Positions 2,939 through 5,401 of a stretch of 64,000 nucleotides of DNA are shown here, in pieces. A program made the translations under genes and the position numbers. The DNA is from Sphingomonas sp. (GTDB lineage: Bacteria; Pseudomonadota; Alphaproteobacteria; Sphingomonadales; Sphingomonadaceae). The DNA lies in the NCBI RefSeq assembly GCF_017744835.1, contig NZ_JAGIAM010000007.1:1-64000 (forward strand), in the 5' to 3' direction. The notes beneath the pieces were generated by a model. That model searched no databases. It was not told where the DNA came from and saw only the letters and a program-made list of their open reading frames with translations. Position 1 is the first letter of the stretch. Every line of letters starts with the position of its first letter.

Positions 2939-3086
2939 TTTTTGTTCACGCAAAGGCGCAAAGGGATCTGGTACCGCGACAGCGGCTGGAATCCTCGAGA
3001 TCGGCAATAGCTGCCGCTTGCGCGGCGCGATCGCTCGCAGGGCAGGGCGGCATCTTCGCGTCTTTGCGCCTTTGCGTGAACAAAAA
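2939..3086. repeat. palindromic MITE-like repeat, copy 1
   Basis: The element is bounded by a perfect 25-bp inverted repeat. The left arm is 2939-2963 (TTTTTGTTCACGCAAAGG and on) and the right arm 3062-3086. The interior, with GGCTGGAATCC and GCTTGCGCGGCGCGA, resembles the reverse complement of the interior of the copy at 5268-5401. The two copies are therefore in opposite orientation. There is no transposase and no coding capacity. Confidence 0.75.
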
Positions 3087-3228
3087 TCCCGCCCTCGGCC
3101 CGCTCGCCGACGGCTGTGAGGCGAACGACAAACCCCGGAAACAAGCGGCGCGTCATGGTTCCTTCCAACGGGGCGGCTCTTTTCACGCGCGCGGATTTGC
3201 GCCTATCGAGCAGCTTCCCGCTGGAGAC

Positions 3229-5169
3229 ATGCAGCCGATGACCAAGATCCTTACCGTCCTTCTCGCTGGAACCGCTTTCCTCGCCTCGCCCGCGCTCGCG
3301 CAGCAGGGGCAGCCCGCGCAGCCGTTCAACGACATCCCGGCGAACTTCACGCCGCCCGAGCAACCCGGCGACTTCATCAAGCGCGAAGTGATGATCCCGA
3401 TGCGCGACGGGGTGAAGCTCTACACCGTCATCGTCATCCCCAAGGGTGCGAAGAACGCGCCGATCCTGTTCACGCGCACGCCCTACAACGCCAACGGCCG
3501 CGTCAAGCGGACCGACAGCACCACGATGATCAACGCGCTGCCCGAGGGCGACGAGGTGTTCGTCAAGGCGGGCTATATCCGCGTCTTCCAGGACATCCGC
3601 GGCAAGTACCGCTCGGAGGGCGACTACGTCATCACGCGCCCGCCGGTGGGGCCGCTCAACCCGACCAAGGTCGATCACACCACCGATGCGTGGGACTCGA
3701 TCGACTGGATGGTCAAGAACATCCCCGAGACCAACGGCAAGGTCGGCATGCTCGGCTCGAGCTACGAGGGCTTCACCGTGGTGATGGCGCTGCTCAACCC
3801 GCACCCTGCGCTCAAGGTCGCCGCGCCCGAGAGCCCGATGATCGACGGCTGGATGGGCGACGACTGGTTCCACTATGGCGCCTTCCGCCTCGCCAACATC
3901 GGCTGGATCGGCGCGCAGACCGGCTACAAGGGCGACGGCAAGGCGCCCAACCGACCCGACTGGGACGATTACGACACCTTCCGCCGCGTCGGCTCGGCCG
4001 GCGATTGGGCGAAGAAGTTCGGCTACGACCAGCTGCCGATGTGGAACAAGATGAGCCAGCACGTGGCCTATGACGAATTCTGGCAGCTCCAGGCGCTCGA
4101 CAAGCTGATCGCGCAGAAGCCTTCGAACGTCCCCACCCTCTGGGAGCAGGGCATCTGGGATCACGAGGACATGTACGGCGCGATCCACGCCTGGGAGGAA
4201 ATGCAGAAGACCCCGGCGGCCGACAGGAACTTCCTGCTGATGGGGCCGTGGCGCCATTCGGGCTTCAACTACAACGGTTCGAAGCTCGGCCAGCTCGAGT
4301 TCGAGGGCGACACGGCGCTCCAGGCGCGCCGTGACATCCTGCTGCCCTTCTTCAACGCCTATCTGAAGGACGGCGCGCCGCCCTTCACGCCGGCCAAGGC
4401 GAGCTTCTACAACACCGGCGACAATCGCTGGGACTATCTCAGCAAGTGGCCGCTCGCCTGCGACAATGGCTGCGACCAGAAGCTCACGCCGATCTACCTC
4501 AAGTCGGCCGAGCGGCTGGGCTTCGACAAGCCGGGCGCGGGCTCGGACAGCTACGTCTCGGATCCTGCCAAGCCGGTCCCGCACCTGCCGCGGCCGGTCA
4601 ACTTCCAGGACGGCCGCTGGTCGACCTATCTGGTCACCGACCAGCGCTTCGTCGACGGCCGGACCGACGTGATGACCTATATGACCGAACCGCTGACCGC
4701 GCCGGTCCGCGTCTCGGGTGCGCCGATCGCCGATCTCTTCGCCAAGACGACGGGCACCGACGGCGACTTCGTCGTCAAGGTCATCGACGTCTATCCCGAC
4801 GAGATGGCGACCAAGAAGGAGATGGGCGGCTTCCAGCTTCCCATCGCGCTGGACATCTTCCGCGGCCGCTATCGCAACTCGTTCGAGCATCCGACCGCGA
4901 TCCCCGCGGGCAAGGTGCAGGAGTACAAGTTCCGCCTGCCGACGGTGAACCACGTCTTCCAGCCGGGGCACCGGATCATGGTACAGGTCCAGTCGAGCCT
5001 GTTCCCGGTCTATGACCGCAACCCGCAGAAGTTCGTGCCCAACATCTTCTTCGCCAAGCCCGAGGACTATCAGAAGGCGACGGTGACGCTGATGTACGGC
5101 GGCGCCCAGTCGAGCAACGTGCTCCTCCCGGTGGTCCCGCTCGACCAGTCGGCGGCGGCGGCGAAGTAG
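3229..5169 (+). CDS. alpha-amino-acid ester hydrolase (CocE/NonD, S15 superfamily)
   Basis: Secreted or periplasmic serine hydrolase of 646 residues. Family members hydrolyse alpha-amino acid esters and can transfer the acyl group onto beta-lactam nuclei. Residues 1-25 form a signal peptide ending SPALA-QQ. The nucleophile elbow GSSYEGF puts the catalytic Ser at 178. The motif WDHEDM gives Asp311 and GPWRHSG gives His343. The spacings of 133 and 32 residues equal those I recall for the Acetobacter turbidans enzyme (Ser205, Asp338, His370). The acidic patch DGWMGDDWFHYG is also present. The start at 3229 follows CTGGAG; an in-frame ATG at 3238 is possible. The gene stands alone on the plus strand between two inverted copies of a palindromic repeat. 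The alternative is a generic X-Pro dipeptidyl-peptidase/CocE esterase; substrate is not proven. Confidence 0.88.
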   Translation: MQPMTKILTVLLAGTAFLASPALAQQGQPAQPFNDIPANFTPPEQPGDFIKREVMIPMRDGVKLYTVIVIPKGAKNAPILFTRTPYNANGRVKRTDSTTMINALPEGDEVFVKAGYIRVFQDIRGKYRSEGDYVITRPPVGPLNPTKVDHTTDAWDSIDWMVKNIPETNGKVGMLGSSYEGFTVVMALLNPHPALKVAAPESPMIDGWMGDDWFHYGAFRLANIGWIGAQTGYKGDGKAPNRPDWDDYDTFRRVGSAGDWAKKFGYDQLPMWNKMSQHVAYDEFWQLQALDKLIAQKPSNVPTLWEQGIWDHEDMYGAIHAWEEMQKTPAADRNFLLMGPWRHSGFNYNGSKLGQLEFEGDTALQARRDILLPFFNAYLKDGAPPFTPAKASFYNTGDNRWDYLSKWPLACDNGCDQKLTPIYLKSAERLGFDKPGAGSDSYVSDPAKPVPHLPRPVNFQDGRWSTYLVTDQRFVDGRTDVMTYMTEPLTAPVRVSGAPIADLFAKTTGTDGDFVVKVIDVYPDEMATKKEMGGFQLPIALDIFRGRYRNSFEHPTAIPAGKVQEYKFRLPTVNHVFQPGHRIMVQVQSSLFPVYDRNPQKFVPNIFFAKPEDYQKATVTLMYGGAQSSNVLLPVVPLDQSAAAAK

Positions 5170-5180
5170 GACGCTCCACC

Positions 5181-5257
5181 GTCACCCCGAAAGCGGGGAT
5201 CCAGGAATCACGGGCGATGCCCTGGTGGCTCTGGGTCCCCGCCTTCGCGGGGATGAC
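5181..5257. repeat. REP-like palindrome
   Basis: Imperfect inverted repeat running from GTCACCCCGAAAGCGGGGAT to GTCCCCGCCTTCGCGGGGAT followed by GAC. The GTCATCCCCGCGAAGGCGGGGA type of motif is a widespread dispersed intergenic repeat in Proteobacteria, known from general experience and not searched here. It could also act as a terminator for the upstream gene. Confidence 0.7.
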
Positions 5258-5267
5258 GGAAAGAGGC

Positions 5268-5401
5268 GTTCACGCAAAGGCGCGAAGACGCGAAGAGGCT
5301 TCAGCCAGTGGCGCCGCGCAGCGGCCCTCGGAGCGCTTTCCGGGATTCCCGCCGCTGCCGCGGCGGCGAACCTCTTCGCGCCTTCGCGCCTTTGCGTGAA
5401 C
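5268..5401. repeat. palindromic MITE-like repeat, copy 2
   Basis: The arms 5268-5298 and 5371-5401 are 31 bases each with one mismatch. The outer 20 bases, starting GTTCACGCAAAGGCGCGAAG, match perfectly. The first 16 bases of the arm are shared with copy 1 at 2939-3086, and the interior matches copy 1 in reverse orientation. Confidence 0.75.

Follow-up and report, generated by a model that had tools for sequence, protein, structure and literature searches.

Two palindromes beside an esterase gene in Sphingomonas sp. are probably gene-less members of a GxxExxY-nuclease palindromic element family

The first 64,000 nucleotides of contig NZ_JAGIAM010000007.1 of Sphingomonas sp. (assembly GCF_017744835.1; this stretch is the window hereafter) contain two long palindromes, elements a and b, on either side of a single esterase gene. 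Our preferred reading, to which we give a probability of about 0.62, is that both palindromes are members, lacking an open reading frame (ORF) and resembling miniature inverted-repeat transposable elements (MITEs), of a palindromic element family whose complete form encodes a GxxExxY nuclease, and that the esterase gene merely lies between them. On this reading the palindromes are probably what an overlooked type of selfish DNA has left behind, and probably do not delimit a mobile esterase gene. Coordinates without a locus label are positions in the window (contig C7); the genome, G000, is a 3.92-Mb assembly of 8 contigs, and other genomes and loci are cited by G and L numbers.

The original prediction had described two long palindromes with inverted arms of 25-31 bp, and both arm complementarity and folding bear this out. 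The arms of element a are perfectly complementary over their outer 25 nt (25 of the first 31 compared), and folds of the single-stranded DNA gave z values of -8.13 for element a and -10.68 for element b against 200 shuffles. The units follow each other in the order (T)TTCACGC AAAG GCGC AAAG in the arms of element a and (G)TTCACGC AAAG GCGC GAAG ACGC GAAG in those of element b. The predicted match of the interiors in reverse complement was also recovered: full-length comparison of element a with the reverse complement of element b scored 53 (same-strand comparison 32), and the interiors alone scored 23 and 14, respectively, with at most 15 in 300 shuffles. Because the reverse-complement score is the highest, mainly through a core of ~20 nt (CCGCGNCAGCGGC.GGAATCC), the opposite orientation of the two elements is confirmed. 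Both interiors contain the inner inverted pair CCGCGNCAGCGGC ... GCCGCTNNCGCGG, and the 3.92-Mb genome contains 21 copies of the 16-mer GTTCACGCAAAGGCGC and none of its reversed control.

Table 1 Positions of the palindromes, of neighbouring features in the window and of the gene-bearing element in the same genome
Feature	Position	Strand	Description
Element a	2939..3086 (148 bp)	.	ORF-less palindrome, from DNA fold and arm comparison
Element a arms	2939-2963 and 3062-3086		~8-bp units (TTTTTGTTCACGC AAAG GCGC AAAG)
Element a interior	2964..3061	.	Inner inverted pair CCGCGACAGCGGC / GCCGCTTGCGCGG
Element b	5268..5401 (134 bp)	.	ORF-less palindrome, from DNA fold and arm comparison
Element b arms	5268-5298 and 5371-5401		30/31 positions complementary
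Element b interior	5299..5370	.	Pairs with the interior of element a in reverse complement
CocE/NonD family hydrolase gene	3229..5169	+	TIGR00976 255 bits (queried from 3232); read as bystander, not cargo
Second palindromic repeat (CGTCACCCCG...CGGGGATGACGG)	5180..5259	.	Different kind, outside the arm-palindrome family
L051a	G000:C3:706536-706974 (439 bp)		Between fabD and fabG; family arms around 131-codon GxxExxY ORF

The inverted ends of the window elements recur in the same genome around a gene, in element L051a, which is the relation expected between a MITE and its longer, gene-bearing relative. The ORF (L051:2552-2947) matches TIGR04256 with 119.1 bits (cut-off 35) and PF13366 with 118.5 bits (cut-off 22), and is the sole PF13366 match in the genome. 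It is tightly enclosed by its arm pair, with the start codon directly after one arm and the last codons and the stop within the other. The proposed search for a transposase with matching ends thus does lead to an enzyme gene inside the same arms, but to a GxxExxY gene.

We assign the GxxExxY protein to the PD-(D/E)XK nucleases as a prediction: a protein of ~130 residues with a putative D..ExK active site to which the glutamate of the GxxExxY motif would contribute. The conserved residues are G25, E28, Y31, D68, E78-x-K80 and Q92xxxY96, of which D68, E78 and K80 are invariant and E28 is present in more than 90% of 32 sequences; the QxxxY part we take to be a RecB-like motif. The assignment draws on these motifs, on an AlphaFold2 (AF2) model (pLDDT 94.8, pTM 0.88) and on VIA Z scores of 9.5 for the closest solved fold, SSO0001 (Foldseek E 1.2e-3), a Cas4 protein, and 8.3 for the next, the restriction-endonuclease-like protein 3ijm. 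At VIA Z below 8, a range in which according to the tool a match may reflect no more than a frequent arrangement, type II restriction enzymes, Hjc resolvases and further folds followed; Foldseek with the model gave no match at E<=0.001, and the GxxExxY profile, searched against PDB sequences, gave none at E<=1. The ratio of nonsynonymous to synonymous substitution rates (dN/dS) was 0.04-0.28 in six pairs, so the nuclease is under purifying selection and the protein is maintained. Of 81 copies that have arms, 79 retain their catalytic residues, versus 11 of 14 armless copies, a weak difference (p 0.022). The armless copies with altered catalytic residues, L107 and L114 (both in genome G153) and L322, are possibly domesticated or decaying. 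There was no GxxExxY match in the phage collection searched and there were 8 records in the plasmid collection, so carriage is rare in those collections.

The association of GxxExxY genes with inverted arms is well supported and extends far beyond this genome. We tested gene flanks for inverted repeats of any kind at a score of at least 14, with shifted windows as controls. In the family set (58 PF13366 places, all those in a sample of 199 genomes of the family; 56 evaluable), 53 of 56 genes were flanked, compared with 3/219 controls. The cross-phylum set comprised the best 80 of at least 578 relatives found in a scan of genome contigs (84,980 species), of which 77 were evaluable; here 68/77 were flanked, compared with 6/333 controls. 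Judged by record titles, this set spans Pseudomonadota, Verrucomicrobia, Acidobacteria, Chloroflexi, Planctomycetes, Bacteroidetes, Cyanobacteria and further groups. These two sets overlap in four locus pairs that are the same record. A phylum sample of 398 genomes had 102 listed places, 40 of which were used (39 evaluable); here the figures were 29/39 and 0/78. Judged by eye, most of the flanking repeats printed consist of ~8-9-bp units and a few are of other make. A pattern search of the 80 cross-phylum loci, a set chosen for GxxExxY, found 51 arm pairs, of which 33 hold GxxExxY (434-616 bp) and 18 are under 250 bp, so that every pair of 250 bp or more in this set holds the gene; the complete form, arm, GxxExxY gene and inverted arm, mostly measures ~430-480 bp. 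At L315 (G391:C21), L308 and L331, GxxExxY is flanked by inverted repeats of other units (GACGCGGATGAACGCGGATG, CACGGACACTCACTGACGCTCACGGACG), which suggests that further bacterial repeats belong to GxxExxY elements.

Arms and gene also co-occur at the level of genomes, in counts that include the arms of the GxxExxY copies themselves. Of the family-sample genomes with GxxExxY, 27/40 have the arm pattern versus 15/159 of those without (p 2e-13), and at least four arm sites occur in 13/40 versus 7/159 (p 4e-6). The corresponding figures for the phylum sample were 14/64 versus 19/334 (p 1e-4), where many single sites look chance-like.

The window palindromes belong to a family dispersed through the genome. 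A degenerate arm pattern (up to 2 mismatches) matched 45 forward and 42 reverse places, with 7 and 4 for its reversed control, and on reading in place we counted 26 elements, ~1 per 150 kb, including three that are partial or atypical (L040, L054, L055). The suggestion that two MITE insertions border the gene therefore comes close, since both copies fall in this dispersed family. Several elements contain nested arm pairs, two or three of different kinds (AAAG, GGAG and AGAG units), spaced by a few to ~15 nt; these are L039, L041, L043, L045, L048b, L052a and L056. In a rough ORF call, a gene begins or ends within 20 bp of 14 of the 26 elements, and 5 lie inside a called ORF; we read those ORFs as over-extended or spurious, and element a itself falls in one, the hydrolase ORF read from an upstream GTG. 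The interiors are alike within the neighbouring pairs L045a/b and L053a/b, and among the matches listed (score of at least 22) the best interior partner is L047a for element a and L044 for element b.

ORF-less copies come and go between relatives. The four relatives read (G250, G220, G247 and G200) lack the L048b palindrome at the corresponding gene junction, and so, as judged by gap length, do G202 and G242. At the L042 and L048a sites, G247 has a family palindrome with other arms and G200 has none; other repeats occupy these sites in G202, G220 and G250, and longer inserts in G242. In L054 (G000:C5:119309-119358), the arms are inside-out, pointing apart with a short gap in a compact palindrome that could be a junction or head-to-head form, and the same order occurs at places in G186, G001, G157 and G095. 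Rfam searches gave scores far below the gathering thresholds, mostly to long-hairpin microRNA families and varying with the stretch searched, and we set these candidates aside as generic hairpins.

Arms vary from copy to copy, whereas the two arms of one copy match each other. Summed over 39 copies at the fabD-fabG site, true left-right pairing scored 1033.5, compared with at most 830.5 in 10,000 re-pairings; for 100 copies elsewhere the sums were 1958.5 and at most 1190.5. In 51 arms with unlike units, agreement was 83/147 units in register and 80/282 out of register, so the match is largely position by position and not merely the product of a shared repeat. On a tree of FabG plus FabD from 39 hosts, a minimum of 18 changes of arm kind is needed, where shuffling gave a mean of 21.0 and a value this low in 13/200. 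We examined six unit positions in the 31 of 39 fabD-fabG copies that could be parsed, and left and right arms agreed in 29/29, 29/31, 23/30, 28/31, 24/30 and 29/31 copies; at the best position, with 29/29 agreeing, there were 8 changes on each side on the host tree. At five positions, independent contrasts on well-supported branches went the same way in 5.0/5, 4.7/6, 4.5/6, 3.9/5 and 3.5/5, and the opposite way in 0 to 0.1.

The site of L051a is shared with many relatives: fabD and fabG are also present at 42 of 143 GxxExxY loci examined (one, L121, being a duplicate record), and GxxExxY lies between them in those of the 42 listed, except L097, where it is nearby. On a nuclease tree of 96 rows and 138 columns, many of whose forks are unresolved, 7 changes of the fabD-fabG label suffice compared with 30.9 when shuffled, and nuclease lineages are tied to this site. 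Among ten genomes of the genus, the element is present in five, only ~12 bp separate fabD and fabG in three (G250, G220 and G200), and G239 has another sequence. The remaining genome, G155 (L243/L246), has one solo arm between the two genes, 18 arm sites in all and no GxxExxY, and looks like a case of a lost nuclease. The site is thus fixed, with occupied and empty alleles, as for a homing element. One further fabD-fabG element, L126, comes from a record named Arthrobacter sp. TPD3018 that falls among sphingomonads on the host tree, so the record name is probably wrong.

Close hosts at this site may carry similar or quite different units. Two pairs share their arm kind, L117/L236 (hosts 97% alike, GxxExxY 91%) and L122/L123 (95% and 90%), and two have different arms and nucleases that are only 71% (L118/L239, hosts 98% alike) or 69% (L127/L128, hosts 95%) alike. 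The nearest nuclease of L118 is that of L238 (84%, same GAAG arms, hosts 82%), and that of L239 is L126 (84%, same GGAG arms, hosts 86%). For 31 of the 39 copies, nearest host and nearest nuclease are not the same; there the arms had a mean likeness of 20.0 to those of the nearest nuclease and 16.7 to those of the nearest host, a plain difference of means. Because arms and nuclease differ together in close hosts, the unit seems to have been replaced at one site by related units. This replacement looks like homing-like turnover, but recombination of the usual kind across the region could also account for it.

That GxxExxY elements move we infer from sequence comparison. Most probably the nuclease recognises its own arms, either as a DNA hairpin or cruciform or as repeated 8-bp units, and/or cuts the unoccupied or rival allele; host repair would then copy the element in, giving homing-like spread at a fixed site. 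ORF-less palindromes would originate through loss of the gene, and nucleases acting in trans would have spread them, often near gene ends and often locally. In its widest form, which we hold only tentatively and at somewhat less than even odds, GxxExxY elements would be an unrecognised, cross-phylum, minimal selfish DNA, in which a nuclease and covarying arms of ~8-bp units form one homing unit that in trans seeds the abundant short palindromes (CGCAAAG/CGCAGAG/CGCGGAG-type) of bacterial genomes.

Several observations weigh against the family reading and the movement it implies, in addition to the arms contained in the co-occurrence counts and the plain comparison of means noted above. Near-identical nuclease-bearing copies at different sites were not present among the 184 loci compared, where L313/L323 (79% nucleotide identity) is the only pair whose flanks are unrelated on either side; no recent jump to a new site was thus observed directly. 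We found no target duplication or clean palindrome junction, the intergenic spacers being too diverged in relatives. Arms fell below the threshold at 3/56, 9/77 and 10/39 GxxExxY loci of the three sets, and G001, G072, G095, G155, G157 and G196 have many arms but no GxxExxY. In the arm comparison, base 1 of unit 2 showed no covariation (23/30 agree; of 5 contrasts, 1.4 were the same, 0.5 opposite and 3.0 unchanged), and with so few contrasts no single position reached p 0.05.

The same genomes with arms and no GxxExxY would be natural if the palindromes were primary, as host or other repeats, and GxxExxY genes were parasites inserted in palindrome centres in the manner of homing genes. This is also how one might read the excess of ORF-less over complete forms in this genome, ~25 to 1, and the core unrelated to the gene that is common to several interiors. 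We nevertheless consider it unlikely, given that arms switch along with the nuclease at one site in close host pairs and that all the long arm pairs of the cross-phylum loci, in that set chosen for the gene, hold GxxExxY. Dispersed, palindromic and intergenic repeats also bring to mind repetitive extragenic palindromic (REP) sequences, bacterial interspersed mosaic elements (BIMEs) or terminal inverted repeats (TIRs) moved by a REP-associated tyrosine transposase (RAYT, with a Y1 domain), and TIR-flanked RAYT relatives are described in PMC3733652. In the 199 family genomes, Y1_Tnp is indeed linked to the arm pattern (11/31 versus 31/168, p 0.03), more so at four or more arm sites (9/31 versus 11/168, p 0.0009, unstratified by GxxExxY). 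However, in genomes lacking GxxExxY, Y1 and any arm site are unlinked (3/23 versus 12/136, p 0.37), whereas in Y1-less genomes GxxExxY stays linked to arms (19/32 versus 12/136, p 3e-9). PF01797 has no match in this genome, which thus has no Y1_Tnp; transposition by a RAYT is largely refuted here and in general very improbable.

A role at the level of RNA, as transcription terminators or as a processed messenger RNA (mRNA) stem comparable to ribosomal RNA (rRNA) intervening sequences, would suit the strong hairpins, the maintained arm complementarity and the gene edges close to about half of the elements. Yet element a has T5 before and A5 after on both strands, and element b is followed by A6 on the plus strand and GCCTCTTT on the minus strand, so the 3' T-run that marks an intrinsic terminator is missing from both. 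At isolated mismatches within arms, G.U is not favoured over A.C in the sense strand (55 versus 61, p 0.64; 215 versus 240 in a looser count), thus there is no sign of a sense-RNA constraint, and DNA pairing or palindrome copying fits. We therefore rate an RNA-level origin as improbable. The original prediction had offered, as one of two possibilities, a mobilised cassette bracketed by inverted repeats, and two inverted copies do flank a single gene. Paired elements recur elsewhere in the genome, however, with 6 neighbouring pairs within 2.5 kb compared with a random expectation of 0.41 and a maximum of 4 in 20,000 simulations, so that pairing is a habit of the family and not a property of the esterase.

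The relatives of the window argue against a cassette still more directly. In a search with a 3.6-kb query against 61 genomes of the genus (own genome included), the hydrolase gene was matched at E=0 in at least 37 of the 60 others among the matches listed, and all of these 37 alignments stopped short of both palindromes, staying within query positions 771-2789; lower-scoring matches in other genomes of the genus may be paralogues. In the regions of eight relatives compared, no alignment to either palindrome was found at E<=1e-3. The upstream gene and the hydrolase gene are close neighbours in 6 of these 8 and ~1.8 kb apart in G247 and G199, and in an alignment of the left junction from the window and five relatives, element a is present in the window only. 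The hydrolase gene is thus common in the genus and stands without both palindromes in the relatives read, and the repeats are dispersed, which are the very observations that had been named beforehand as speaking against mobilisation; we regard a cassette as scarcely credible. One gene does lie between the palindromes, with an in-frame ATG of its ORF at 3229, but not exactly between them, as the second palindromic repeat separates the gene from element b. Repeats resembling that second palindrome occur in relatives (L282, L283 and L284) at a site where this genome has an arm palindrome.

To our knowledge, no role is known for the annotated GxxExxY family. Its name appears in a reverse-transcriptase survey and in a virus genome table (PMC8934634, PMC12085832), and the passages concerned do not deal with repeats or mobility; PF13366 appears in one further paper. 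In the open-licence PMC literature, preprints excluded, we found no link of GxxExxY to repeats and no occurrence of the arm 14- to 17-mers tried. Palindromes of ~8-bp units are dispersed in many sampled genomes without a known source, and the GxxExxY link gives both the palindromes and the gene a testable explanation. If it is right, PD-(D/E)XK would be another enzyme class behind bacterial palindromic repeats, besides HUH and DDE, and the elements would provide a natural example of joint change in a nuclease and its long inverted repeat.

Among known systems, 23S rRNA intervening sequences carry an ORF for the S23 protein within a long inverted repeat, and the likeness lies in a small ORF in the loop of such a repeat; the elements here lie outside rRNA, encode another protein and show no sense-RNA constraint. 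Free-standing homing endonuclease genes likewise combine a tiny nuclease with a fixed site (here fabD-fabG), turnover between species and empty sites, and one homing endonuclease, I-Ssp6803I, is of the PD-(D/E)XK type. In contrast to these genes, the unit here is bounded by matched inverted arms, lies outside any intron or intein and has many ORF-less relatives in the genome, and its nuclease is a predicted one. MITEs are similarly short and ORF-less, with inverted ends common to a longer gene-bearing element, but no DDE transposase is linked here and nearly the entire element is palindromic. The nearest analogue is found in REP/BIME sequences and REP doublets forming hairpins (REPINs) with their RAYTs (HUH, Y1), which are likewise dispersed intergenic palindromes tied to a small, dedicated, repeat-flanked enzyme gene whose gene-bearing form is outnumbered by ORF-less copies. 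PMC3733652 gives TIR-flanked RAYTs and, as defining REP features, a GTAG or CGTC tag and a palindrome of 20-40 bp. The window elements, at 148 and 134 bp, end in TTTTTGTTCACGC / GTTCACGC with no such tag; their arms are ~25-31 bp of 8-bp units, and the enzyme is a predicted PD-(D/E)XK nuclease in a genome that lacks Y1_Tnp. We place GxxExxY elements with the enzyme-linked palindromic repeats, and there is a fair chance that they form a class of their own.

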